NCBI RefSeq assembly: GCF_027706725.1
Contig: NZ_JAQFWQ010000046.1
Span: 1 to 49,494, forward strand
Direction of reading: 5' to 3'
Source of the DNA: Nocardiopsis endophytica
Lineage (GTDB): Bacteria; Actinomycetota; Actinomycetes; Streptosporangiales; Streptosporangiaceae
DNA length: 49,494 bases
Of the stretch, positions 15,351 through 46,564 are shown piece by piece. Each line of letters opens with the position of its first letter. The stretch's first letter is position 1. The notes below the pieces were generated by a model. It was not told the origin of the DNA and made no database searches. It saw only the letters and a program-made list of their open reading frames with translations. A program made the translations under genes and the position numbers.

Positions 15351-15423
15351 TACCCCCGAGCGGATTCGAACCGCCGTTACCGCCTTGAGAGGGCGGCGTC
15401 CTAGGCCACTAGACGACGGGGGC
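15351..15423 (-). tRNA. tRNA-Glu (CTC), copy 2
   Basis: The 73-nt gene folds as a standard cloverleaf: acceptor stem GCCCCCG/CGGGGGT with discriminator A, anticodon stem CCGCC/GGCGG with loop CTCTCAA (anticodon CTC), and a GGTTCGAATCC T-loop. CCA is not encoded. It is identical to the copy at 15523-15595. Confidence 0.96.
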
Positions 15424-15483
15424 CTATTCGTGCCTCATCCTATCGGACCCCTGTGGGCCCGGCCGGATCCGGCCTGCTCCAGT

Positions 15484-15510
15484 AAAAAGGCTCCCATCGG
15501 GTGGGAGCCT
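15484..15510 (-). terminator. Rho-independent terminator after tRNA-Glu copy 1
   Basis: On the minus strand AGGCTCCCA pairs perfectly with TGGGAGCCT across a five-base loop, followed by a T-run. It separates the two tRNA-Glu genes, so each can be an independent unit. Confidence 0.9.
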
Positions 15511-15522
15511 CTCCCTGCTGCG

Positions 15523-15595
15523 TACCCCCGAGCGGATTCGAACCGCCGTTACCGCCTTGAGAGGGCGGCGTCCTAGGCCACTAGACGACGGGGGC
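15523..15595 (-). tRNA. tRNA-Glu (CTC), copy 1
   Basis: This 73-nt cloverleaf has anticodon CTC and is identical to the downstream copy. It lies between tRNA-Gln and the second tRNA-Glu, 262 bases downstream of gltX, whose product charges it. Confidence 0.96.
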
Positions 15596-15647
15596 CCAAG
15601 AGAACCGTTCTACCGGTCCCGCGACCTCCCTGCCGGGAGGCCGTTGG

Positions 15648-15719
15648 CTGGGGTACCAGGACTCGAACCTAGACTAACTGAACCAGAATCAGTCGTGCTG
15701 CCGATTACACCATACCCCA
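15648..15719 (-). tRNA. tRNA-Gln (CTG)
   Basis: This 72-nt cloverleaf has acceptor TGGGGTA/TACCCCA, anticodon stem ACTGA/TCAGT with loop TTCTGGT (anticodon CTG), and T-loop GGTTCGAGTCC. In actinomycetes without glutaminyl-tRNA synthetase it is first mischarged with Glu by GltX and then amidated, which fits the adjacent gltX. Confidence 0.95.
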
Positions 15720-34138: not shown

Positions 34139-34483
34139 TCAGCGTTCCTGCATCGCTCGGCCCAGGTCGGCGAAGGCCTGCCATGCGTCGCCTTGCGCGG
34201 TGATCGCCTCGACCTCGAACACCGACTCCGACGTCGGCGGGTAGCCGATCAGCTCGATCGACTTGCTCGGTGCGGGCGGGCGGTTGCGCGCGATCGCCTC
34301 GGCGGAGTCCCACAGGTAGACGGCGCCCCAGATCTGCTGCGCGGGATGGGAGAACCACACCTTCAGGTGCATCCCGTCGACCTCGGAGAACGCCTCCACG
34401 GCGTAGTCGCGGAGGTACTCCCGCAGCCCTTCCACGGTCCGCTCCGAGTCCCGCAGGTCCCAGGCGAGGATCATCACGTACAC
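34139..34483 (-). CDS. Small YdhR/ABM-like alpha+beta-barrel protein at end of thiopeptide operon
   Basis: The 114-residue product (VYVMILAWDLRDSERTVEGLREYLRD..., GMHLKVWFSHPAQQIWGAVYLWDSAEAIARN) has the strand-helix pattern and KVW...GAVYLWDS block of YdhR-like dimeric alpha+beta barrels, a fold shared with cofactor-free monooxygenases and cyclases. GTG at 34483 has CCGGAG six bases upstream and lies 31 bases after the YcaO stop, so it is probably the last gene of the operon. The fold assignment is moderate and no reaction is claimed; a tailoring role is inference from position. Confidence 0.6.
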   Translation of the reverse strand: MYVMILAWDLRDSERTVEGLREYLRDYAVEAFSEVDGMHLKVWFSHPAQQIWGAVYLWDSAEAIARNRPPAPSKSIELIGYPPTSESVFEVEAITAQGDAWQAFADLGRAMQER

Positions 34484-34514
34484 GGCGCACTCCGGAATCG
34501 GTGGCGGTCGGGGG

Positions 34515-36476
34515 TCAGGGGAACGGATGCGGGAACGGGTTGATGTCCGCATCGTCCAGGGGGCGGGGTGCATACCCCAACCGGTAGGGCACCTCGCGCA
34601 GGCGGGGCAGCCCGTGGATCCGGCGGTAGGCGTGACCGAACGTCATCGGCAGCATCCCGGGCACGAGCACCTTCACGCAGCTCAGCCCGGCGCGGCGGTG
34701 CTCCGACGTGGTCTGGTCCACGGCGACCACGTCCAGCCCGTCGGCCAGCAGCCGCCCGGCCAGCGCGAGCAGGTCCCCGGTCAGGTCGGCGCCGGCGATC
34801 GGCGGCCACTCCGGCGTACCGAACGACGCGCCGATCGGCACGCCGGGACGCGGTTCGGTCCCGGTGAGGAACCGCAGCCGGTCGAACACCCGGGAGTCGG
34901 CGTACAGCAGACCGTGGTCGGCCATCCGCTGCACCTGCTCCGGATCCGCCACCATCTCCCCGACCCGCTCGGCCTCCCCGGGGTAGGTGCCGATCAGCCC
35001 GTCCAGGATCGGGCCGAGCTCGGCGAGCGCGCCCAGCACGGCCCGCTCCGGCTGCAGGTGCGCGCCGGCCGCGCAGGACAGCCGCGGCCGGCTCTCGTCG
35101 CCGTCCAAACGGACCGCCATCGCCCACACGCTGGGGACGCCGTGGTCGAGCGTGGTGTCGTACAGCGACACCGCGTAGCCCTGCTCGTGCCGGATCTGCT
35201 CGACCAGCATGGGGATCGTGCGGTCGGCCGCCGAGTAGGGGTCGACCCTCGGGACCGGCAGTCGTGCGTACCACGTCATCAGGAACGCGTCCCGCTCCAC
35301 CACTTCGAGCAGGCCATGCAGGACCGCCTCCTCCAGGCAGCTCCCGGTGGCGCCGCCGTTGGAGGACTCGAGCACGAACATCGGGTCGCGCCCGGGCTCC
35401 CCGCCGGTGCCGTAGTAGGCGAGCCGTTCGGGGACCAGGACCGGTCCGCGCCGGGCGAACGAGTACCCCTGCACCCAGCCGTACTCCCGGCCGGGGTCGA
35501 ACGGCGTGCAGCCGAAGCCCTCCTGTGCGTACGACTCCGGCGGGTGGAGGCCGATCGCCGAGACGTCGACCGCCCGCTCGGCGACCTCGTGGTAGGTCGC
35601 GCGCACCACCTCGGGCCGGTCGCCCTGCCGCAGCCCGCCGTACCGTTCCAGCGCCTCGCAGATCGCGACCGTCTCACTGGTCCGGAAGTCGCGGGTCCGC
35701 CCGTAGCCGGACTCGGTGCTCTTGGACCGGTGCCGGTCGCGCAGCCGCATCGGCGCCCGTACCAGCGCCATCCCGGCCGTCGTCCCGTACTGCAGCTCGC
35801 GGATCAGTCCGGCCTCGGGCTCCACGAAGCGGGCGCGCAGGTCGGCGGGGTCGAGGTCGGGCCGCAGCCGGTAGGTGTGCGGGTCCGGCTTCGGCCGCGG
35901 ACGCGACGCGACCGGCTCGCCGGGGCCGCCCGGAGGGGCGGCGGAGTGCTCAGCGCAGTCCGGGCAGCGCGGGTCGGGCAGGAACGGATGCCGGGACACT
36001 TCGAGCGTGCGCAGGTCGACGCGCAGGAACGCCTCCGCTGTGCGCAGGAGCCCGCCGTCGGCCGCCCGCGCGGCTTCGGCGGCGACCAGTGCGGCCACGG
36101 TGTCGGCGGCGAGCGGGGTCAGCAGCGTCGACGGGGTGGCGGCCAGCGTGTCGCGGTGCGCGGTGAACGCGGCGAGCGTGCCTTCCGGATCGGGGCTCGC
36201 CCGGTGCCGCCGCTCCTGCGCGCACCGCAGGCAGCCGCCTGCGCCGGGCCGTTCGAGCGGGCCGACGACCACGGTGCCGAGCTCGGTGCGCACCGGAAGC
36301 CACGGCACTGCGTGGTCGCGGGCCCACCGCCGCAGCTCCTCGTCGTCGCGCCAGCAGTCGCTGACCGAGACGGCGAGCTCCGGGGGCTCGGCGGCGACCG
36401 GCTCGCGGACCGCGCCGGTCACGGCCGCGGCCAGCAGGCCGGTGCCCTCGACGCGCACCCCTGGGGAGTCAGCCAT
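34515..36476 (-). CDS. YcaO cyclodehydratase of thiopeptide cluster (TbtG-like)
   Basis: This enzyme uses ATP to cyclise precursor cysteines to thiazolines. The 653-residue protein has an N-terminal region (1-200) with two CxxC pairs, Cys82/Cys85 and Cys171/Cys174, a likely structural zinc site. The YcaO domain follows: KSTESGYGRTRDFRTSETVAICEALERY and EEAVLHGLLEVVERDAFLMTW carry ATP/Mg contacts. The C-terminus is NPFPHPFP, the proline-rich tail needed for activity in YcaO cyclodehydratases. It overlaps the preceding ocin-ThiF gene by eight bases, matching the known two-protein complex. Confidence 0.94.
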   Translation of the reverse strand: MADSPGVRVEGTGLLAAAVTGAVREPVAAEPPELAVSVSDCWRDDEELRRWARDHAVPWLPVRTELGTVVVGPLERPGAGGCLRCAQERRHRASPDPEGTLAAFTAHRDTLAATPSTLLTPLAADTVAALVAAEAARAADGGLLRTAEAFLRVDLRTLEVSRHPFLPDPRCPDCAEHSAAPPGGPGEPVASRPRPKPDPHTYRLRPDLDPADLRARFVEPEAGLIRELQYGTTAGMALVRAPMRLRDRHRSKSTESGYGRTRDFRTSETVAICEALERYGGLRQGDRPEVVRATYHEVAERAVDVSAIGLHPPESYAQEGFGCTPFDPGREYGWVQGYSFARRGPVLVPERLAYYGTGGEPGRDPMFVLESSNGGATGSCLEEAVLHGLLEVVERDAFLMTWYARLPVPRVDPYSAADRTIPMLVEQIRHEQGYAVSLYDTTLDHGVPSVWAMAVRLDGDESRPRLSCAAGAHLQPERAVLGALAELGPILDGLIGTYPGEAERVGEMVADPEQVQRMADHGLLYADSRVFDRLRFLTGTEPRPGVPIGASFGTPEWPPIAGADLTGDLLALAGRLLADGLDVVAVDQTTSEHRRAGLSCVKVLVPGMLPMTFGHAYRRIHGLPRLREVPYRLGYAPRPLDDADINPFPHPFP

Positions 36477-38265
36477 CCGCCAGCACCACCTGCAGCAGGT
36501 TCGGCATACGCCGGGTCACCTCGGGATCGTGGTCGAGCGGGACGACGACCGGGTCGTGCCCGGTGGCCGCCACCGCGGCGGCGAGCCGGTCGAGCGTCAG
36601 CGGGGCTTCGTCCGGCCTGCGGCGGATCGGGCCGCTCAGGTGCGGCGGCAGCGGGTCCAGGGCGGGCGGCGCGTACGCCGGTTCGGCGTGCCGCCTGGAC
36701 TGGTAGCCGAGCAGCGACTGTTCGAGCGCGTCCCGGAGCGCCGCTCCGATCGACGTGCCGAAGGCGCAGACCCTGACGGTGCCGTGTGGGCCCGAGCGGA
36801 CCAGCACGCCCGGTACGCCGAGCAGCCCGCCGAGGTCGAGCACGGTGACAGGGTCTCCGGTGGCGTGCAGCAGCGCGCGGTAGCGGCCTCCGATCGGGTC
36901 CAGCTCCATGTCGTCCAGTGCGAGCGACGGCAGCGGCTCGCTCACGGAGCGGAGGGCGGCGACGGCCAGCGCGCGGCAGTGGTCCAGTAGCGCCTTCTCG
37001 ACCGCCTGCTCCCAGCTGTACCCGGCGGCGGCGCCGGGCACCGGCCAGGTCCGGACCGCGCCGTCCAGCACGGGGAACGCCTGCCGCGCGGGCACGTCCC
37101 GCGGCGTACCGTCGAGGAGCCGGAGGCCGCGCACCGTCCCGCCCGACAGCCGGCGCGGGTCCACCGCGAGCGAGCCGTAGACCGCGTATCCGCGCAGCGC
37201 GGCGTCGTAGCGGGCCGCCGCGAAGTCCGGCCCCGCGCCGACCACGCGCACCGGGCCGCCGGCGAGCGCCATCGGGTCGGCGACCACGGCCTCACTGACG
37301 TGCACGGGGAACTGCGCGTAGCCGCGCTGGGCGATCTCGGCGAACACGCCGGCGTGGTCGTCGACCAGGGGCGCGGTACGGCGGGACAGCTCCTCCTCGG
37401 TCAGCCGTTCCCCGGGGGTCGGGTCTGCGGGCGGCGGGAACTCCATCGGGTGCGGCAGGAAGGCGTGGTGGGCGGTCTCCAGGTCGGCGTACCGGATGCT
37501 CGTCAGCCGGTCGCGCTCGGCATCGTCGGCGACGCCGGTGGCGACCCGGAACACCCGCTGTACCAGCTGGTTCGCGACCACCGTGAGGTGCTCGGCGGGC
37601 GGCGCAGGGGCGTCTGTGGGCCCAGGCCGCAGCGCCGCCAGCCGCCGCCGACCGCTCGCCCCGTCCGCGGCCGTGCTCGCGACCGGGCCGAGGACGGCGC
37701 GGTCGCCCAGGTGTGCGGCGTATCCGATCAGCGAACCGGCGCAGCGTTCGCGCACCCGGCGCACCAGCGGGAGGTCCGGCCCGTCGGAGACCAGCAGCAC
37801 GATGCCGCCCGCGTCCCCGTCGGGCGGCTCGGCGTCGGACGAGACGACGCTCGCGGCTCCGGACCGCTCGCAGGCCAGGGCGACCGCGTCCGCCAACGGG
37901 CCCTCACCGACCACGAGGACCGTGCTCCCCCGGTAGTCGCGGAGCGCGGCGTCCGGTGACTCCCGGAAGTATCCGAGGTAGCGCTCCTCCGGGGTGCCGC
38001 CGCCGGGGGGCTCGTCCTCCAGCTCGCGCAGCACCCCCGCCTCGACCAGCGCTCCCACGACCCGCTCCAGCATCGGCCGGTGCCGGTCGTCCAGCCGGGA
38101 GGCCAGGTCCTCGAGGCCGAACCGCCCGTCCAGGAAGGGCTCCAGCCGGTCCAGCCACGCCGCGATCGAGGTGCCCTCGAACGACACCGGCCCGTGGTGG
38201 GTCAGGAAGGCCAGCCCGGTCGGCGTGGTCGCGCGGTAGACGTCGCGGCGCAGCACCAGCCTCAT
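36469..38265 (-). CDS. Ocin-ThiF-type leader-binding partner of YcaO (TbtF-like)
   Basis: Partner proteins of this type bind the precursor leader and present the core to YcaO. In the 598-residue product the first ~85 residues (RLVLRRDVYRATTPTGLAFLTHHGPVSFEGTSIAAWLDRLEPFLDG...) look like a RiPP recognition element (winged helix), and STVLVVGEGPLADAVALACERSG resembles a ThiF/E1-like nucleotide fold. The C-terminal ~300 residues resemble a catalytically dead YcaO-like/ocin domain. It overlaps the SagB-type gene upstream by four bases and YcaO downstream by eight, so all three are translationally linked. Confidence 0.88.
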   Translation of the reverse strand: MRLVLRRDVYRATTPTGLAFLTHHGPVSFEGTSIAAWLDRLEPFLDGRFGLEDLASRLDDRHRPMLERVVGALVEAGVLRELEDEPPGGGTPEERYLGYFRESPDAALRDYRGSTVLVVGEGPLADAVALACERSGAASVVSSDAEPPDGDAGGIVLLVSDGPDLPLVRRVRERCAGSLIGYAAHLGDRAVLGPVASTAADGASGRRRLAALRPGPTDAPAPPAEHLTVVANQLVQRVFRVATGVADDAERDRLTSIRYADLETAHHAFLPHPMEFPPPADPTPGERLTEEELSRRTAPLVDDHAGVFAEIAQRGYAQFPVHVSEAVVADPMALAGGPVRVVGAGPDFAAARYDAALRGYAVYGSLAVDPRRLSGGTVRGLRLLDGTPRDVPARQAFPVLDGAVRTWPVPGAAAGYSWEQAVEKALLDHCRALAVAALRSVSEPLPSLALDDMELDPIGGRYRALLHATGDPVTVLDLGGLLGVPGVLVRSGPHGTVRVCAFGTSIGAALRDALEQSLLGYQSRRHAEPAYAPPALDPLPPHLSGPIRRRPDEAPLTLDRLAAAVAATGHDPVVVPLDHDPEVTRRMPNLLQVVLADG

Positions 38266-39641
38266 GCGCGGCTCCCATCCGTACCGGGCCGGGTGCCGAG
38301 CATGAACTCCCCGACCGTGCCCTCGGCCAGCGGGTCGATGCCGGTGGCGGCGGCGAACTCCTCGGAGTCGCCGGTGCCGACCGCGCACGCCGCCAGCCCC
38401 ATCGCGGTGGCCACCATGTACATCACCTGGAACAGGACGCCGACGTGCTTGAGGATCAGCGCGTAGCCGAAGGCCTCGTACTTCCACATCACCCGCCCGA
38501 ACCGCGCGGTGACCAGCACCAGCACGTGCGGCGGCGCGGGGATGCCCTGGAGCGCCTGGTTGACCCCGGTGATCCGGCGCAGCGCGGCCGGGTCGGCGGC
38601 GACGCGCTCCAACCGGTGGCCGTCCTGGTCGTACCGGTACAGGCCCGGTTCGAGCCCGTCCACCCGGCGGACGAGGGGGTACAGCTCCAGTTCGTAGGCC
38701 GCTCCGCCGGACGGGTACGGGCGGCCCAGGAACTCCGTGCCGTCCTGCTTGGCCTTCGCCCGGGTGCTCGCGCACCGGTACAGGAACTCGGCCAGCTGCC
38801 GCTCGGAGAGGGGGTGCTCGTCGTCGTACGCGCGCTCGGAGGTCCGGTCCTCCAGCACCGCGGTCAGCGGCGGGTCGGTCGCGCGCAGGGCGGCGAGGTC
38901 GGGGCGGTGCAGGTCGATGCCCGGCCCGGCCGGCGCCCGCAGCGGGGGGAGCGGGGCGGCGACGCCCTCGAACCGCGCCGTCCTGCCGATGTCCTCGCCG
39001 AGCGTCCGCCGCCCGCCCAGCCTGCTGTGCGTGTGGAACCACAACTCGTGCGGGCTCCACTGCCGCATCCGCAGGTCGTCGGGGGCGTGGTCGGCCTCCG
39101 CATCGAGGACGCCGGCGTGCGCGAGGTCCTCGAGGAACCGGTGCACGACGGCGGTGTCGAGGTCCTCGGCCAGCTCGACCGCGTCGGCGCCCCCTGCCAG
39201 ACGGCTCACGGCCGCGACCGCGCGCGGGTCGTGCAGGCGTACGTCGTGGGCCGCGCCGGGCACCGCGAGCACCAGCTCACCGGCGTCCGGCGCCAGCACG
39301 GCATGGCGGGACAGGCGCGCGGGCGACGGCGGGGCCGGGCGCTCCCGCCCGGGCGCGCGCAGCGGCTCCAACGTGTAGAGCGGGGTGCCGGAGGCGGGGG
39401 CGGCGACGGTGACGCGCAGCCAGCCGGCGGGCCGCAGCCGGTCCACCAGCCCGGTGCCGTCGAGCTCCTCGGGGCCGCACCGCCCACCGGACAGGCGGTC
39501 CAGTGCGCTCCGCTGCTCGGGGGACAGGGCGCCGAGCGGCTCGACGTGCGGCCAGCGGATCAGGTGCACCCCGCCGGACTCCGAGGTCGCCGCGTGCACG
39601 CCGGTGCGCAGGCTGAACAGCTCGGTGACGGCGCCGCTCAT
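38262..39641 (-). CDS. SagB-type azoline dehydrogenase (TbtE-like)
   Basis: This FMN-dependent enzyme oxidises thiazolines to thiazoles. The 459-residue protein has an N-terminal helical region and a C-terminal nitroreductase fold. Recognisable blocks are SERAYDDEHPLSERQLAEFLYRCA (FMN phosphate site), PYPSGGAAYELELYPLV, and MWKYEAFGYALILKHVGVLFQVMYMVATAMGLAACAVG, including the Lys-Tyr pair expected at the active site. It overlaps the pyridine synthase stop by four bases. Confidence 0.93.
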   Translation of the reverse strand: MSGAVTELFSLRTGVHAATSESGGVHLIRWPHVEPLGALSPEQRSALDRLSGGRCGPEELDGTGLVDRLRPAGWLRVTVAAPASGTPLYTLEPLRAPGRERPAPPSPARLSRHAVLAPDAGELVLAVPGAAHDVRLHDPRAVAAVSRLAGGADAVELAEDLDTAVVHRFLEDLAHAGVLDAEADHAPDDLRMRQWSPHELWFHTHSRLGGRRTLGEDIGRTARFEGVAAPLPPLRAPAGPGIDLHRPDLAALRATDPPLTAVLEDRTSERAYDDEHPLSERQLAEFLYRCASTRAKAKQDGTEFLGRPYPSGGAAYELELYPLVRRVDGLEPGLYRYDQDGHRLERVAADPAALRRITGVNQALQGIPAPPHVLVLVTARFGRVMWKYEAFGYALILKHVGVLFQVMYMVATAMGLAACAVGTGDSEEFAAATGIDPLAEGTVGEFMLGTRPGTDGSRA

Positions 39642-40696
39642 CCGGCCGCCCCGGAGATCACCTCGACGGACGTCCTGCCGTAGTGGCGCTCGGCGGTGTT
39701 CGCCGCGAAATGGCAGAGGGCGTGGCGCTCGATGGGGCTGATCCCGAGCCGGGTCAGTTGGAGGTAGGCGTAGTTGATCAGCTGCCGGAAGACCGAGAAG
39801 TCGTCGCCGCGCATCCGCTCCAGCGCCGCGGGGTTGGCGACCAGCGCGCGGTGGAACTCGCTGGACAGGTCCTCGAATCTGCGGGGCTCCACCGGCGGCA
39901 GGTAGAGGCGGCCGTCCTCGACCAGGGCGCGCACCGCCGCCTCGATCGGGCGCAGCGTGTCCACCCAGCGGCGGACGAACGGCACCGCCGTGCGGGTGCC
40001 GTCGAGGGTGGCCAGCACCCCGGTGAGCTCGGCGGCGAAGTGGTCGGCGTTGCGGGCGTACTGCGCGTCCCACTCGCGACGGCTCTCGGCGCCGCCGGCC
40101 GCCGCGTGCAGGAACGCCTCCGTGTGCGAGCGGAACGTCACGAAGTCCCGCTCCAGCCCGTCGGCGGAGAACGCCTCCACCGTCGCGAGCAGCAGGGCGA
40201 ACGCGAGCCGCCGCCGCTGCGCAGGGTTCGGGGTGGCGGCGATCGCGTCGAAGGTCAGCGGCGTGGTGGCGACGTGGAAGCGGGCCAGCATCTCGGCGGT
40301 GTCGGCATTGCCGTGCACGTGAAGGCGCTCGTCGTAGGCCGCGGGGACGATCGTGTTGTTCGGCGGCCACGGGCCCAGGGGGCCGCGCTCGCCTTCGAGG
40401 GCCGCCAACCGCTCGTGCAGCGGGAGGATCGCGGCCGGATCCAGCTCGGTCGTGGACGGGTGCGCGCGCAGGAACCCGCCCACGATCTCGTCGGTGGCGG
40501 GCAGCACCAGCCGGTCGTACACCGCGTCGTCGGCGCGCACGTGGAGTCGCAGGTGCGGACCGAGCCGCCAGTGCGGGACGAAGTAGGCCTCGGGCACGTC
40601 CTCGGCGAGCCGCTCGAACAGCGGACGGACGCCCTCCAGGATCAGCCGGTCCCGGTCGTCGTCATGGTAGTGGACGTGGATCGCCCGCCACGGCAT
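39638..40696 (-). CDS. Pyridine synthase, thiopeptide macrocyclisation (TbtD-like)
   Basis: TbtD-type enzymes catalyse the formal [4+2] cycloaddition of two dehydroalanines, then aromatise and eject the leader as the C-terminal amide. The 352-residue protein opens WRAIHVHYHDDDRDRLILEGVRPLFERL and VPEAYFVPHWRLGPHLRLHVR, the thiopeptide-type bacteriocin (split LanB C-terminal) pattern, and ends GISPIERHALCHFAANTAERHYG. ATG at 40696 has a strong GAGGGGGAGAGG site. Its start lies 35 bases inside the C-like gene. The assignment to the pyridine synthase over the elimination protein rests on gene order and this N-terminal block. Confidence 0.88.
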   Translation of the reverse strand: MPWRAIHVHYHDDDRDRLILEGVRPLFERLAEDVPEAYFVPHWRLGPHLRLHVRADDAVYDRLVLPATDEIVGGFLRAHPSTTELDPAAILPLHERLAALEGERGPLGPWPPNNTIVPAAYDERLHVHGNADTAEMLARFHVATTPLTFDAIAATPNPAQRRRLAFALLLATVEAFSADGLERDFVTFRSHTEAFLHAAAGGAESRREWDAQYARNADHFAAELTGVLATLDGTRTAVPFVRRWVDTLRPIEAAVRALVEDGRLYLPPVEPRRFEDLSSEFHRALVANPAALERMRGDDFSVFRQLINYAYLQLTRLGISPIERHALCHFAANTAERHYGRTSVEVISGAAG

Positions 40697-41678
40697 GCCT
40701 CTCCCCCTCTTCCCCCTCTGTGTCGCGCACCGCGCGCATCGCGAGCACGCGGACATAGCTCTCGTCGGCCAACGACAGCCCGATCCGGTTGCAGAACAGG
40801 TGCGCGCAGATGTCGATGACGGGCAGCACGCTGGCCGGTGTACCGGGCGGCAGCGGACCGGCGCCCTCCCACGCCCGGGCCGGGGGCGTGAACCGGCCGG
40901 CCGCGGCCTCGGCGGTCAGCACCCGCTTCAGCCGGTCGACCGACCCCGTCCATTCGGCGAGGTCGCCGCGCCCCTGCCGCCCGGCCACCGCACGCAGCCG
41001 CCCGGTCAGCGCGGTCAGCGTGGACCGCTGCCGCTGCCATCGCCGTTCCAGCTCCGCCTGGTCCAGCTCGCCGCCGATCGGGATGCGGGTGTCCATCTCC
41101 GCCCACGCGGACCGCCACGCCGGGTCGTCGCGGAAGCCCAACCAGGCGAGCACCAGCAGCGAGTAGGCCGCGGTGAACCGCTGATCGTCGTCCAGACCCC
41201 CCGCGAGCAGGCGCAGCGCCAACCGGCTGGACTCGGCGAAGTGCCGCTCGACCGCCGCCATCGCCGCCCCGGTGCCGAACCGGTGCCGCTCGCGCACGTA
41301 GGGCCGGAACTCGACGGAGTTGTTCGGGCGCAGTTCGGCGTAGGCCTCAAGCCCTTCCCATCCGGCGATCCGGGCCGCCGAGCGCTGGTATTCCGTCGGC
41401 TCCACCCGGTCGGCGGCCGGACGCTCGGCGAGGTACCGCTCGAACCGGCCGCGCACCAGTTCCCCGACCTCGGCTCGCGCGGAGGCGTCCCGGGGAAGGA
41501 CACGGAACCGCAGGTGCGGCCCGCCGTCCCAGTAGCGCAGGAAGAACCACTCGGAGGCGAGATCGCGCTCCCGCAGCTCGGCGACCAGCGGCGCGACCGC
41601 CTCGACCAGCAGGGGGTCGAGCCGGTCGTGGTAGAAGACGTGCGCGGCGAGCCAGTCGGCCTCGGTGTGCTCAGCCAT
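40662..41678 (-). CDS. Glutamyl-Ser elimination protein, split LanB C-terminal domain (TbtC-like)
   Basis: In split thiopeptide dehydratases this protein removes glutamate from glutamylated serines to give dehydroalanine. The 338-residue product begins WLAAHVFYHDRLDPLLVEAVAPLVAEL and SEWFFLRYWDGGPHLRFRVLPRD, related to but distinct from the next gene. PNNSVEFRPYVRERHRFG is typical of the elimination domain, and the C-terminal ICAHLFCNRIGLSL fits the family. The gene overlaps TbtB by eight bases and TbtD by 35, indicating tight coupling. Confidence 0.88.
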   Translation of the reverse strand: MAEHTEADWLAAHVFYHDRLDPLLVEAVAPLVAELRERDLASEWFFLRYWDGGPHLRFRVLPRDASARAEVGELVRGRFERYLAERPAADRVEPTEYQRSAARIAGWEGLEAYAELRPNNSVEFRPYVRERHRFGTGAAMAAVERHFAESSRLALRLLAGGLDDDQRFTAAYSLLVLAWLGFRDDPAWRSAWAEMDTRIPIGGELDQAELERRWQRQRSTLTALTGRLRAVAGRQGRGDLAEWTGSVDRLKRVLTAEAAAGRFTPPARAWEGAGPLPPGTPASVLPVIDICAHLFCNRIGLSLADESYVRVLAMRAVRDTEGEEGERHAVAGDPRPLP

Positions 41679-44331
41679 CGGCGCCCCGTTCGGGGTCGCG
41701 TTCGGGGATCTCCACGACGAACTCGGCGACCCGCTGCTCCCCGTCGTGCGCGGTCGGCGCGTCGCCCGGCTCCGGCAGCGCCTCCTCGATCAGGAGTACG
41801 GCGGTGTCCGGGTCGGCCGCCAACTGGTCGAACAGCTCGACCAGGAAGGGGTTTCCGGCATCGACGTACAGCGGCTTGCGGGACTTGCGGAACGCCCAGT
41901 AGGGCAGCGATTCCGCGGCCAGCTCCTGGTCGAACAGCGCGGCGCCGAGCGCGCGGACGAAGCAGGTGCGCGGCATGCCGTGCTCGTGGAGCCAGTCGAG
42001 CAGCCGGTAGAGGTGGTCGGCCGGGCGCTCCCCCGGGCCGCGGACCGGGGCGAGGCCGGCGGGCACCAGCCAACTCGCGCGGCGGAGTACGACGTGGCCC
42101 ATGCGCAGCCTCGGCTGGTGGACGAGCCGGTCGGGGACCCCGGTCTCGGCCAGGTCGCTCAACAGCGTGACCGCGGGGTGCTTGAGGTAGCTGCCGCCGA
42201 ACACGTGCGTGAGCAGACGGGCGGCCGGGGGCAGCAGCGAGTCGGCCATCGTGCCCAGGTGCAGCGGCGTCACCGGGCGGCCGAGCGACTCCGACTCCAG
42301 CCGGGGCAGCTCCCGCTCTGCGTCGAGGGTGACGACCAGATCGTGCAGGGCGATCCGCGCGTGTTCCGGGGCGGCGGTCACCACGCCGGGGTAGTCGAGT
42401 TCCCGGTCGGCGGTCGGCCGCTTACGGTTCAGTCCCGATCCGAACGCTCCGGCGAGCTCGGCGGTCAGGGCGCCGTCTCCGGCGGTGGTGACGCCGAGCG
42501 GTTCCGGTCGGGCACCGGCCGTCTCCAGCTGGCGGTGCAGCCGGTTGCGGCCGCGGCCGAAGCCGGTGGCGGCGGCGTTCAGCACCAGGTGGGCGGAGGG
42601 GTGGGCCGAGGCGTCGGCGGGACGGCCGGGCACTTGCTGGACGAAGCACACGAGCGAGCGCGGCGGCCGGATCCACGCGGGCCAGCCGTCGGTCATCGCG
42701 GCGATCCGCGCGGGGTCGGTGTACAACTCGCCGTCCATCTCGCCGTCGCTCCCGCCCTCGGTGAGCAGGGCGCGCGCGGCCTCGTCCTGCAGCCGGTAGA
42801 GCTCGCGCACTCGGTCCAGCCCGCTGGACCGTCGCAGCAGGGGGTTCGTGGTGAACGCGAGCTCCATCGCGGACCGCAGCTCGTCGGCGTACGGCCCTCC
42901 TCCGTCGATCTCCTCGTGGATCGCACGCTGCAGGTCGACCACCGGCAGGCGGCAGCCGGGCCCGAACCGGGCGGCCAGGAAGGAGCCGAGCACCAGCCGC
43001 AGCGGCGCGACCGGGTCGTGGACGGCCAACCAGCGGCGCACGACGTCGAGGTCGTCCAGCGCCGACCGCCACTCCGGCAGCGCGCACTCCGCGGGTACGC
43101 CGGTGTGGACGGCGTTCTCGTGCAGGGTGATCCGGTCCGGCTCGGCGTCGGTGAGCGCGGCGGCCGTCTCGCGGACCGCGCGCGCCCGGGCCGTACCGGC
43201 GTCGAGGTCGGCGGGCGGGACGGTCCGGCTCAGTTCAAGGTCGAGCGTGCTCGCCGACTTCCGGCACGCCTCGAAGCCGTCCGGCGCGGCGCGCTCGAGC
43301 CAGTCGGCCAGCTCCGCGAACGGCCGTTCGGCCTGGTCGGCGACGGGCAGCTGCGCCTCCAACAGCCCGCCGGCGAGGAGCTTGTCGACGTACCGGCGGA
43401 CCGCGTCGGGGTTCCCGCCCGAGCGGCCGAGGTGCGCGCACAGCTCCGAGACCGTGAGCGGCCCGTGCTCGCCGACGGCCCGCAGGACCGCGGCCACCGT
43501 CGCCGAAGCGGGCAGCGACACGATCGGCTCGTCCCGGCTCGGCGCGAGGAACCGCACCGTGCCGTCGCGTTCGGTCGCGCTCGGGTTCACCCGTACGACG
43601 AGCTCACCGGCCAACCGCGGGTCGTGCGCGAGCGCGTCGCGGACCCGCTCGAAGACGAGCCGGTCGGTTTCGAGCAGCACCCGCGCCTCGCCGGGATCGG
43701 GGAGGCGCGTCGCCGGCCGGTCGGTCCACCGGCCGAGGCCGCTGATCGTGAACGTGCTGTTGGGGCTGGTCTTCGCGGCCGCGCGCGCGACGTACTTGAC
43801 CAGCCGGTCGATGCTCTTCCGGCGCGGCCGGCGCCCGGGGTCGGCCTGCCATTTCCGCAGCACCGCGTACAGCGGCGGGCTGGACAGGGAGAGCGCGTGC
43901 AGGAACAGCGGGTCCGCGGTGACCTCCCGCAGCCGGTTCCGGGCCGCGCGGGTCTCCGCCTCGAACACGCCGCGGGCGTCGGCGAGGCGCGTGTGGTGGG
44001 CGCGCAGGCGGGTCACCCAGTCCGCGACCCGGTCGCGCAGCCCGTCCGGCAGCAGCGCCGCGATGCCGTCGTTCCACTCGCGTGCGCCGGGCACCCGGGT
44101 CTGGAACACGGCCCGGCGCAGGCCCACGAGCCCGGGCCTGGCGGCCGGATCGGCCAGGCCGCCGATCACCGGGTACAGCTCGTCCGACAGCAGTGCGCCC
44201 CGCTCGGTGAGCCGCTCGCGGTCGGCGCGGCACGCGTCGAGCAGGGCGATCGACTCGGGGCACCTCAGGTCGGAGAGCGCGGACAGCGGGAGGCCGGCGA
44301 TGCGCACGGCGGGCGGGTCGGTTGCTGGCAA
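41671..44331 (-). CDS. LanB-type glutamyl-tRNA-dependent serine glutamylation protein (TbtB-like)
   Basis: The N-terminal part of a class I lantibiotic dehydratase transfers glutamate from glutamyl-tRNA to core serines. At 886 residues it is the size of the split thiopeptide form. Features are LYAVLRKWQADPGRRPRRKSIDRLVKYVARAAAKTSPNSTFTISGLG (conserved Lys/Arg-rich RNA-facing patch and SPNSTF) and the C-terminal YWAFRKSRKPLYVDAGNPFLVELFDQL. The start TTG at 44331 is tentative; a GTG at 44307 is an alternative. A stable hairpin separates it from the precursor gene. Confidence 0.92.
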   Translation of the reverse strand: MPATDPPAVRIAGLPLSALSDLRCPESIALLDACRADRERLTERGALLSDELYPVIGGLADPAARPGLVGLRRAVFQTRVPGAREWNDGIAALLPDGLRDRVADWVTRLRAHHTRLADARGVFEAETRAARNRLREVTADPLFLHALSLSSPPLYAVLRKWQADPGRRPRRKSIDRLVKYVARAAAKTSPNSTFTISGLGRWTDRPATRLPDPGEARVLLETDRLVFERVRDALAHDPRLAGELVVRVNPSATERDGTVRFLAPSRDEPIVSLPASATVAAVLRAVGEHGPLTVSELCAHLGRSGGNPDAVRRYVDKLLAGGLLEAQLPVADQAERPFAELADWLERAAPDGFEACRKSASTLDLELSRTVPPADLDAGTARARAVRETAAALTDAEPDRITLHENAVHTGVPAECALPEWRSALDDLDVVRRWLAVHDPVAPLRLVLGSFLAARFGPGCRLPVVDLQRAIHEEIDGGGPYADELRSAMELAFTTNPLLRRSSGLDRVRELYRLQDEAARALLTEGGSDGEMDGELYTDPARIAAMTDGWPAWIRPPRSLVCFVQQVPGRPADASAHPSAHLVLNAAATGFGRGRNRLHRQLETAGARPEPLGVTTAGDGALTAELAGAFGSGLNRKRPTADRELDYPGVVTAAPEHARIALHDLVVTLDAERELPRLESESLGRPVTPLHLGTMADSLLPPAARLLTHVFGGSYLKHPAVTLLSDLAETGVPDRLVHQPRLRMGHVVLRRASWLVPAGLAPVRGPGERPADHLYRLLDWLHEHGMPRTCFVRALGAALFDQELAAESLPYWAFRKSRKPLYVDAGNPFLVELFDQLAADPDTAVLLIEEALPEPGDAPTAHDGEQRVAEFVVEIPERDPERGADG

Positions 44332-44368
44332 TACGGCTCTCGTCCCTCTCCTGCTGGGAGCCTGGGGG

Positions 44369-44413
44369 CGCCCGCGCCGGCGGGGCCGTTTCCGGCACCC
44401 ACCGGCGCGGGCG
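44369..44413 (-). terminator. Hairpin between precursor and tbtB-like gene (attenuator candidate)
   Basis: CGCCCGCGCCGG (44369-44380) and CCGGCGCGGGCG (44402-44413) form a perfect 12-bp stem with a 21-base loop in the 101-bp gap between precursor and LanB genes. No T-run follows on the minus strand, so partial termination or mRNA stabilisation would favour excess precursor transcript. That role is inference. Confidence 0.6.
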
Positions 44414-44432
44414 GATCACGCAGGGGTCGTCG

Positions 44433-44612
44433 TCAGGAACACGAGCAGCAGGAACCCTGGTCCAGGCTGCAGCACGACGCGCCGTTCTCCGGAAGACCGT
44501 GTCCGGCGGTCAGCGATTCGACGGTGAGGCCCTTCGACGTCAGCGAGAACACGTCCATGGGCAGGTCGTCGACCTCGAAGTCCACTTGGTCCGGGCTGTC
44601 AGGGGATTGCAT
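44433..44612 (-). CDS. Thiopeptide precursor peptide (TbtA-like)
   Basis: The 59-residue precursor has a 45-residue acidic leader and a 14-residue core. The leader carries DDLPMDVFSLTSKGL and VESLTAGHGLPENGA; as I recall it, the thiomuracin precursor leader has the same DLPMDVF...VESLTAGHGM..GA framework. The core is SCCSLDQGSCCSCS. Start ATG at 44612 with AAAGGAG seven bases upstream; an in-frame extension to 44732 lacks a leader pattern. It is first in the biosynthetic operon. Expected product: thiazoles at Cys2, 3, 10, 11 and 13, dehydroalanine-type residues at Ser4 and Ser9, and a pyridine from Ser1 and Ser12. Confidence 0.95.
   Translation of the reverse strand: MQSPDSPDQVDFEVDDLPMDVFSLTSKGLTVESLTAGHGLPENGASCCSLDQGSCCSCS
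44436..44477 (-). other. Predicted thiopeptide core peptide, 14 residues
   Basis: The codons spell SCCSLDQGSCCSCS followed directly by TGA. The cut after Gly-Ala matches thiomuracin/GE2270-type precursors. The terminal CCSCS resembles the CCSCS of those cores, which aligns Ser12 with their second pyridine serine. The middle L-D-Q-G has no cyclisable residue. The final Ser14 would follow the last thiazole, as in other family members. Confidence 0.85.
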
Positions 44613-44784
44613 TGACCACTCCTTTTGCCGGCACTCTCCAGCTACCGCGGGCCGCGGTCGAAAAGAAAGGACGGGATACCGGTCGGCTGTGAAGGGCGCG
44701 GCATTCACCGGCACGGGAACACAATGCACCAAGGAAAGCGCGGATCGCCTTTCTCAGCCCCCCTCCGCCCCTCGAACCGCCGCC

Positions 44785-44820
44785 TGCGGGCCGCCGGACC
44801 CGCATGCCGCAGGATCCGGC
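44785..44820 (-). terminator. Possible terminator downstream of P450
   Basis: CCTGCG and CGCAGG arms enclose an inner GCGGG/CCCGC pairing, about 70 bases after the P450 stop and 170 before the precursor start. There is no T-run. It may separate the P450 transcript from the biosynthetic operon. The rest of 44613-44889 must hold the precursor promoter, which I could not pinpoint. Confidence 0.35.
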
Positions 44821-44889
44821 GTTGGCCGGGAGCGTAAGCGAGATACGGACGAGTCGTCAATACCGGAAATTTCCCCCGCTGGTCAGGCG

Positions 44890-46026
44890 CTACCAGGCCA
44901 CCGGAAGCCCGGTCGAGCCCACCGCGAGCCGGGGATCGCGGGGCCGGATCTCCTCCGGCGGAACGGCGGGGCGCATGGCCGGAAAACGCCCGACCAGGGT
45001 GTGGAAAAGAATGCTCAGCTGCATGCGGGCCAGCGGCGCGCCCAGACAATAATGCGCACCGGCACCGAAGATCAGCGTGGACTTTCCGGACCGGCGCACG
45101 TCGAGCCGGTCCGGCTCGGCGATGTGCCGCTCATCATGGCTCGCCGCGTGGATGTCGAGCAGCACCAGCTCGCCCTTCCGGATCGTGGTCCCGTCGACGG
45201 TGACGTCGGTGGCGGCCCAGCGGGGAATCCCGAACGGCGTCCGTGTCCCGGCGGCCGTGATCGCCGAGAGGCGGAGCAGCTCCTCCACGGCGTTCTCGAC
45301 CAGCTCGGGGTCCTCGCGCACCGCGGCCCACTGGTCGGCGTCGGCCGACAGCCTCACCAGCGAGTCGTCGATCGCGTCCATCGTCGGGCCGACGCCCGCG
45401 AGCAGGACCAGGCAGGCCACCCGGGTCAGCCGCTCCATCGTCCAGCTCTCGGGGTCCTCGGCGTGCGCGGCCGCGAGATCGGTGGGCACATCACCGCGCG
45501 GCTCGGCGGCCCGCCGCTGAAGGAGCGTCCCGACGTACGCCGAAAGGCCGGTGATGCCGCGCACCATCCGGCCGGGATCGTGGTCGCTGATCGCGTCGTG
45601 CAGCCATCCGTCGAAATCCGCGCCCTCGTCGTCGGGGACGCCGAACAGCTCGCGCAGCACCAGCGGCGGCAGCGGAGCCGACACCAGGCGGTGGAAGTCG
45701 GCGGGTCGCGGGGCCTCGGCGAGGTCGTCGAGCAGGCCGTCCACGATCGCCTGGATCCGCGGCCGCAGTCCCGCGAGCCGGCGCGCGGACATCGAGCGGC
45801 CGACCAGCCTCCGCATCCGCAGGTGCTCGTCCGCGGCGTCGGGCGTCCACTGCTGCGGCGGACCGAAGGGGCCGGAGTCGAAGCAGCGCGGGGCGCCCGC
45901 CGGATCCTCGTGGTAGACGTCCAGGCGCGGATCGGTGAGCAGCCGCCGCACCGTGCCGTGGCCGCCGACCAGCCAGGCCGGGTGGCCGCTCGCGGTGGTG
46001 GTGCGTCGGACCTCGCCGTCTTCCAT
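44890..46026 (-). CDS. Cytochrome P450 associated with thiopeptide cluster
   Basis: The 378-residue soluble P450 has HLRMRRLVG (C-helix, about 68), I-helix LLAGVGPTMDAI (about 208-219), ExxR as E249-L-L-R252, and heme loop FGAGAHYCLGAPLAR with Cys327. The I-helix reads G-P-T where most bacterial P450s have acid-Thr (AG.[ED]T); loss of the acid suggests altered oxygen activation. The N-terminus is about 25 residues shorter than usual, with an in-frame stop nine codons before the start. Start ATG at 46026 (GTG one codon upstream also possible). Hydroxylation or epoxidation of the thiopeptide is likely by analogy. Confidence 0.88.
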   Translation of the reverse strand: MEDGEVRRTTTASGHPAWLVGGHGTVRRLLTDPRLDVYHEDPAGAPRCFDSGPFGPPQQWTPDAADEHLRMRRLVGRSMSARRLAGLRPRIQAIVDGLLDDLAEAPRPADFHRLVSAPLPPLVLRELFGVPDDEGADFDGWLHDAISDHDPGRMVRGITGLSAYVGTLLQRRAAEPRGDVPTDLAAAHAEDPESWTMERLTRVACLVLLAGVGPTMDAIDDSLVRLSADADQWAAVREDPELVENAVEELLRLSAITAAGTRTPFGIPRWAATDVTVDGTTIRKGELVLLDIHAASHDERHIAEPDRLDVRRSGKSTLIFGAGAHYCLGAPLARMQLSILFHTLVGRFPAMRPAVPPEEIRPRDPRLAVGSTGLPVAW

Positions 46027-46141
46027 CACGCCGCCCCCGGAGCCGAAGAGAACTCAAAACAGGACCGCCACCCAACCAGGCGGGCCGAGGACCCGCAAGC
46101 GGTCGGCGCCGCCCGCATTGAAGGCTTCGGCCCGTCTCGGG

Positions 46142-46564
46142 CTAACGCTCGAACGCCTGGGCGACGGCGAGGCTGTCCTCGTAGATGTGGAACCGGGTGA
46201 CGCGGCCGTCCTCAACGGTGAGGTGCAGGGCGAACCGCGCGCGGTAGGCGCGTCCGGTGGGTCGGGCGGTCCGGCGGATCTCGCCGAGCACGACCGCGTC
46301 GCCGCCGTCGATGAGGATGCGCTCGACCTCGGTCGCCGCGCCCTCGGCGACGTGGTGCTCGGCGAGCTCACGGAAGTTGGCGGCGGCGTCGGCCGGGGTG
46401 GACCGGTGGCGGATCCACGGAGTGGCCGGGCGCCCGTGCTCGGCCTCGGGCCAGTCCAGTTTCCAGTCGACGTCGTCGGCGAACAGTTCGGCGATGCGTT
46501 CGGTGTCGCCCTCGCCGATCCTGTACAGCAGCTCCTCGGCCACGGTGCGCGTGCTGGTGGGCAT
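46142..46564 (-). CDS. SnoaL-like (NTF2-fold) protein
   Basis: The 140-residue protein shows the SnoaL-like cone fold pattern: TVAEELLYRIGEGDTERIAELFADDVDWKLDWP, then VERILIDGGDAVVLGEIRRTARPTGRAYRARFALHLTVEDGRVTRFHIYEDSLAVAQAF. Related proteins act as cyclases, hydroxylases or isomerases, or simply bind ligands. It is 115 bases upstream of the P450 on the same strand. It may belong to the cluster or be a neighbour; the sequence does not decide. A GGAG-containing site precedes the ATG at 46564. Confidence 0.78.
   Translation of the reverse strand: MPTSTRTVAEELLYRIGEGDTERIAELFADDVDWKLDWPEAEHGRPATPWIRHRSTPADAAANFRELAEHHVAEGAATEVERILIDGGDAVVLGEIRRTARPTGRAYRARFALHLTVEDGRVTRFHIYEDSLAVAQAFER

Follow-up and report, generated by a model that had tools for sequence, protein, structure and literature searches.

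Thiopeptides that bind EF-Tu are reported to have in common a ring of 29 atoms and an Asn residue (PMC7136475). Lactazole, which is closed between Ser1 and Ser12, is unusual in its 32-membered ring; it is not antibacterial, and no primary role is known for it (PMC7210931). In nosiheptide biosynthesis, NosA acts on serine-extended precursors, requires K49 and E101 and needs its C-terminal loop (residues 112-151); PbtH and TpdK are named as NosA homologues in the same paper (PMC4525488). Here we analyse a stretch of 49,494 nucleotides from Nocardiopsis endophytica ("the window", contig C46 of a 7.26 Mb genome, G000), which carries a cluster of thiopeptide-type genes on its minus strand. We consider it likely that they form a nine-gene pathway whose product would have five thiazoles, a pyridine made from Ser1 and Ser12, a 32-membered ring and a thiazole carboxamide.

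The cluster and its conservation

All genes of the locus lie on the minus strand and follow one another, in the direction of transcription, as a SnoaL-like gene, a cytochrome P450 gene, A, B, C, D, E, F, G and the gene of a 111-aa NosA homologue. The precursor peptide A (59 aa, 44433..44612) matches NF033399 (thiazolyl_GetA) with 90.5 bits (cut-off 29) and PF19409 (Thiopep_pre) with 28.4 bits (cut-off 23.5). B (886 aa, 41671..44331) is a TbtB-like protein of the LanB N-terminal type (PF04738, Lant_dehydr_N); it starts with a TTG codon preceded by AGGAG and, among solved structures, aligns with PDB 6ec7 over residues 5-876 (E 5e-120). C (338 aa, 40662..41678) is of the LanB C-terminal type (TIGR03891, thiopep_ocin; PF14028, Lant_dehydr_C). 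D (352 aa, 39638..40696), the pyridine synthase or [4+2] cyclase, matches NF045556 (TbtD_PbtD_pyrid) with 436.9 bits (cut-off 325) and the solved structures of TbtD (5wa3, E 1e-68) and PbtD (5w98, E 3e-57). E (459 aa, 38262..39641) is a SagB-type azoline dehydrogenase (TIGR03605, 159.1 bits, cut-off 78.4), and G (653 aa, 34515..36476) a YcaO cyclodehydratase of the SagD type (TIGR03604, 338.9 bits, cut-off 219.25; PF02624, 285.1 bits). F (598 aa, 36469..38265) is assigned as the ocin-ThiF-like leader-binding partner from a weak match to TIGR03693 and because relatives have homologues in the corresponding position.

Adjacent genes overlap throughout the stretch from B to G, by 8 nt (B/C), 35 (C/D), 4 (D/E), 4 (E/F) and 8 (F/G), and about 40 nt separate G from the NosA homologue, for which the first in-frame ATG (at 34474) was taken as the start. 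A preliminary description of this DNA had announced a complete thiopeptide cluster of collinear, mostly overlapping genes in thiomuracin-like order. This much stands: all its features were found between 34139 and 46564, with a family match for each (weak for F and for the last gene), and the order A to G is the same as in the thiomuracin-type loci G321, G158 and G174. The locus thus contains, by sequence, what characterises a thiopeptide (pyritide) cluster, namely a precursor, a YcaO protein with its partner and an azoline dehydrogenase, a split LanB and a pyridine synthase. Chance can be excluded, because relatives repeat the arrangement from A to G and the genes show conservation across species; read from its sequence, the cluster is real and its enzyme genes are open.

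The precursor is carried by three of the six Nocardiopsis genomes (window genome counted), the other two being those of N. suaedae LSu2-4 (G131) and N. chromatogenes YIM 90109 (G127), and the unit from the P450 to the NosA homologue is found in all three species. The three precursor copies are identical over all 59 residues, and their DNA shows 7 and 4 synonymous and no non-synonymous differences (Fisher p 0.006 versus B-G). Constraint is strongest, after the precursor, on the NosA homologue, with 11 synonymous and 1 non-synonymous differences from N. suaedae and 8 and 0 from N. chromatogenes (Fisher p 0.002 versus pooled B-G). It is moderate for the enzyme and P450 genes, with pairwise ratios of non-synonymous to synonymous change (dN/dS) of 0.32-0.55, B being compared with N. 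suaedae only (that of N. chromatogenes is split by a contig gap, with residues 1-590 and 757-886 on two contigs). The lengths of B, E, F and G vary between species. The P450 (378 aa, 44890..46026, PF00067) shares 90% and 89% identity with its counterparts in the other two species, adjoins A in all three, and in all three has the haem motif FGAGAHYCLG and the I-helix motif AGVGPT.

The SnoaL-like protein (140 aa, 46142..46564; PF12680, SnoaL_2) had been presented as a companion of the cluster, a view that we could not confirm: its gene has no match in the homologous loci of N. suaedae and N. chromatogenes. Since it was not found beside the cluster in these two species, it probably lies outside the pathway, and we rejected it as a tailoring enzyme. 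At the other end, 14 nt separate the NosA homologue from open reading frame (ORF) 33703 in the window strain. In the other two species the interval holds, among others, a pair of genes that by eye encode a histidine-kinase-like protein and a beta-lactamase-like hydrolase; these are absent there from the window strain. The same two genes also stand beside ORF 33703 in G129, a genus genome that has no cluster, and for this reason the intervening genes were rejected as pathway members.

Between A and B lies a hairpin (44370..44412, minus strand; 15 + 4 bp with one bulged base). Its fold is better than that of each of 200 shuffled sequences, both in the window and in three relatives (z -5.0, -5.0, -5.5 and -6.0); in the related locus G061_C34 it is not beyond chance (z -0.9, 32 of 200 shuffles as good). 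Four pairs are changed on both sides in four sequences (three distinct), a number reached by 3 of 500 shuffles. In the true register 96% of cells are paired, against 38-48% in slid versions, although a slide of -3 also gives three two-sided changes. These compensatory changes are only suggestive of a conserved hairpin, because there are no more than three distinct sequences; the element may lower enzyme expression relative to the precursor, or protect the precursor transcript.

Predicted chemistry, ring and C-terminus

Each chemical step that follows, like the ring size and the amide, we infer by analogy. On A, F and G would bind the leader and convert the five cysteines of the core to azolines, which E would oxidise to thiazoles. 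B and C would dehydrate serines through glutamyl-tRNA, B by glutamylation and C by glutamate elimination. D would join dehydroalanines 1 and 12 (Dha1 and Dha12) into the pyridine, free the leader as an amide and close the 32-membered ring. Ser14 would also be dehydrated, and the NosA homologue would take off Dha14 as pyruvate, so that the peptide would end in a thiazole carboxamide. For the P450 the probable role is the addition of a single oxygen, with Leu5 as a possible site, this hydroxylation role being a guess.

The gene at 34139..34474 (111 aa), described earlier as a YdhR-like flank, seems to us to be something else. Its match to the Pfam family ydhR is weak (21.8 bits, under the cut-off of 27.1), and its sole significant match among solved structures is NosA (PDB 4za1, nosiheptide; E 3.6e-25), the next having an E of 0.52. 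K49 and E101 of NosA align to K38 and E89 of the window protein, and both catalytic residues are retained, by eye, in all 17 homologues compared. The homologue is, moreover, the next matched gene after G in those relatives that have one. Judged by these likenesses, it is a NosA-type terminal amide synthase, and a gene of the pathway.

The cores themselves agree with this assignment. Among the 28 cores tabulated first, Ser is the last residue in 9 of 11 from loci with a NosA homologue and in none of 17 from loci without one (p 8e-6); with seven cores added (n=35) the counts are 10/12 and 1/23 (p 4e-6), and with look-alike cores merged 8/10 and 1/18 (p 1e-4). Sixty precursor places had been listed, of which G065, G175, G253, G145, G163, G149, G154, G078 and G071 were not extracted (eight of these nine are under the family cut-off), and one precursor was used per multi-precursor locus. 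Absence of NosA means absence in a whole-genome search at E 0.001, so that distant homologues may be missed; in G148_C321 the NosA gene is on another contig. The co-occurrence of NosA homologues with Ser-ending cores offers a simple rule by which amidated thiopeptides could be predicted from sequence.

The window core, SCCSLDQGSCCSCS, follows the leader end ...LPENGA, with its conserved GA. It ends in Cys13-Ser14 and has five cysteines, no Asn and no Ser at position 11. As a rule for the ring-closing residue we took a Ser, from position 4 on, whose two neighbours are each Cys, Ser or Thr. In the window core this rule picks Ser12 alone, which is flanked by Cys; it picks Ser11 in GE2270-type cores, and Ser11 and Ser13 in the thiomuracin-type core, where Ser11 is the only Cys-Ser-Cys. 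There is no candidate in G061_C34, G062_4563k, G062_5711k and G008, and there are several in other cores. With a ring size of 3(n-1)-1, closure between Ser1 and Ser12 would give a 32-membered ring, versus 29 for thiomuracin and GE2270. A thiomuracin-like product is therefore not what we expect from a core that lacks Asn and in which Ser12 alone is flanked by azole-forming residues. The predicted [M+H]+ is about 1087-1139, calculated with leader-amide and water losses (PMC7210931). For C44H46N14O12S5, in which Ser4 and Ser9 are intact, it would be 1123.210, falling to 1105.199 or 1087.188 if one or two more Dha are formed and rising in each case by 15.995 if the P450 adds its oxygen; the unoxidised Dha14 acid that precedes the amide would be heavier by 70.005 (1193.215).

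That this core had gone unrecognised is consistent with our text search of Creative Commons (CC)-licensed PMC papers, in which neither the whole core nor its fragments had a match (subscription papers, figures, supplements and databases of ribosomally synthesised and post-translationally modified peptides being outside the scope). Nocardiopsis chromatogenes and the word thiopeptide co-occur in one paper, where the sole thiopeptide mention in the text available is the title of a TP-1161 reference, and TP-1161 is the only thiopeptide mentioned for Nocardiopsis in the passages available of PMC4603692 and PMC3634020. The core appears to be new and the kinds of enzymes are known, i.e. the product would be a new thiopeptide of a known family.

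Objections and alternative readings

Several observations weigh against the pathway as proposed, and we give them here with the alternatives on which they bear. The match of F to ocin_ThiF_like (TIGR03693) is weak (30.5 bits, far below the cut-off of 561.9). The I-helix of P450s usually holds an acid-alcohol pair, and the window P450 is without it. No transporter, regulator, immunity or resistance gene was found inside the conserved unit. As for the amide, the window homologue ends at 111 aa, and most of the NosA loop 112-151 is missing. The count of Ser-ending cores treats the cores as unrelated (kinship is uncorrected) and has 3 exceptions in 35, two with the gene (the GE2270-type core, ending PSA, and G294/G225, ending SPAC) and one without (G257_C3, HDES). 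One could then suppose that the terminal Ser is kept and that the NosA homologue is inactive or has another role, as the missing loop and the 2 of 12 cores with the gene that do not end in Ser would allow. We think that this is unlikely, although it is the alternative that survives best. Equivalents of K49 and E101 are present, the synonymous to non-synonymous differences (11/1 and 8/0) speak for a constrained protein, and the gene co-occurs with Ser-ending cores. The loop is perhaps not a family-wide feature, because the homologues in GE2270-type clusters are short-tailed too.

Slightly less probable, in our opinion, is closure of the ring at another Ser, which would give a 23-membered ring with Ser9 or a 38-membered one with Ser14, or its start from Ser4. 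Lactazole enzymes have produced 14- to 62-membered rings (PMC7210931), and the cores of the nearest relatives, G061_C34 and G062_5711k, have no Ser flanked by azole-forming residues, so that our flank rule is not universal. However, Ser9 comes after Gly, Ser4 stands before Leu, and Ser14 is terminal and the expected substrate of the NosA homologue; Ser12 alone is flanked by Cys, and we keep the prediction of a Ser1-Ser12 pyridine.

It is still harder to defend a product of the thiomuracin/GE2270 kind, with a ring of 29 members and binding to EF-Tu. The precursor family is indeed that of thiomuracin and GE37468, and the gene order is shared with the thiomuracin-type loci, but the core has neither a Ser at position 11 nor the Asn common to EF-Tu binders (PMC7136475), and D stands apart from the thiomuracin and GE2270 clades. 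Furthermore, each of the six genus genomes has a single EF-Tu (counting matches over E 1e-60), and none of 410 aligned columns separates the three carriers from the three other genus genomes.

L11 is also present in one copy in each of these six genomes. Two of its 143 columns differ consistently between carriers and non-carriers (A/T in column 93, T/S in column 102), a difference that we set aside as a sign of resistance because only three genomes face three others and because there are other thiopeptide clusters in the genus. A TsnR-type methylase occurs in four of the six genomes, among them G129, which lacks this cluster, and in two of the four (the window genome and N. suaedae) it is near another YcaO-like match; it was not assigned as the resistance gene of this cluster, given its presence in G129 and near other YcaO matches. 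On contig C19 of the window genome, a thiostrepton-resistance-type methylase match adjoins a partial YcaO match.

Finally, a decayed or silent cluster without any product is hardly credible: promoter and terminator scans gave nothing above chance, which is weak evidence since the promoter scan covers one promoter type, and against it the genes are open, dN/dS is below 0.56 in every comparison made and the precursor is invariant.

Related loci and known systems

A search of the genome contigs with the D protein gave two loci; in the plasmid collection it matched 4 records, each below 60% identity, and the precursor had no match there. The window genome has seven YcaO matches and a second thiopeptide-type cluster (contig C11, about 65,600-84,800) with the precursor core SCTTTGCTTSSSSSSSS. 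YcaO is encoded twice here, along with proteins resembling B (29% identity) and D (the latter scoring far short of the family cut-off), a protein of the elimination type (TIGR03891) and a radical S-adenosylmethionine C-methyltransferase (TIGR03975, 578 bits); there are also a P450 and a NosA homologue. We take this cluster to resemble the TP-1161/berninamycin kind. N. chromatogenes also has a second thiopeptide-type cluster (G127:C76), whose precursor bears a long acidic tail after its Cys-rich part; acidic tails are seen in G178 and G166_8319k as well. At G062:C1:4563000-4579000, two near-identical precursors ending in SESCQGPPGSQCCS are accompanied by B, C, E, F, G and a NosA homologue (72% identical to that of the window), but between C and E nothing matches a pyridine synthase; the product, to judge from these genes, may be a linear, terminally amidated azole peptide. 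A remnant at G166:C1:7394000-7412000 has a precursor, pieces of B and G and a NosA homologue within about 1.7 kb. G214:C97 has two divergently placed precursors with a predicted Ser1-Ser14 spacing, and in G293, G208 and G322 several different precursors are adjacent to one another. In the window itself, an Rfam search found only three tRNA genes, which are consecutive on the minus strand at 15351-15719.

In a tree of 34 D proteins (N. suaedae included, N. chromatogenes left out), window D groups with those of N. suaedae, G062_5711k and G061_C34 in a clade of four rows (support 100/99). This clade is apart from the thiomuracin-type (G321, G158, G174) and GE2270-type (G139, G195) groups, in which loci of the respective core types stand in for TbtD and PbtD; support for the deep forks is weak. 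The likeness to thiomuracin in gene order does not, in this respect, extend to the pyridine synthase. The nearest D proteins, with 61% and 48% identity, are those of G062_5711k and G061_C34, which belong to another genus of the family; the two loci share with the window a similar leader and acidic residues in the core, but their cores, SSDMSGAGSCSPGGCASF and SCFEDDPTGSLSCTS, are unlike that of the window. G061_C34 has a NosA homologue (71%), and there is none beside G062_5711k. We suggest, very tentatively, that these loci and the window form a separate subclass with thiomuracin-type enzymes, acidic cores (LDQ, EDDP, SDM), no Asn, unusual rings (32-membered and NosA-amidated in Nocardiopsis) and a target that would be neither of the two known thiopeptide targets.

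Compared with the described systems, the locus resembles thiomuracin (tbt) in its precursor family, its TbtB- and TbtD-type enzymes (for which structures are solved) and its gene order, as compared with the three thiomuracin-type loci. It differs in its core, in the predicted ring, in the position of D and in its terminal amide synthase, no NosA homologue being found in the whole genomes of G321, G158 and G174. With GE2270 (pbt/tpd) it shares the split LanB, a PbtD-like D and a NosA homologue after G. However, the GE2270 core is SCNCVCGFCCSCSPSA, D is apart here too, and the GE2270-type NosA homologues are only 35-36% identical to that of the window. The likeness to nosiheptide NosA consists in the significant structural match, the equivalents of K49 and E101 and the Ser-extended precursor, and the difference in a length of 111 aa instead of 151. 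Lactazole (laz), compared by its core only, has the same Ser1 and Ser12 spacing and the ring size predicted here, but the window core is richer in Cys and has Cys at position 2, where lactazole has an unmodified Trp2. If our reading is correct, the locus would be a second natural route to a 32-membered ring, one that uses enzymes of the thiomuracin type on a strictly conserved core, and would allow a direct comparison of ring size, residue choice and target.

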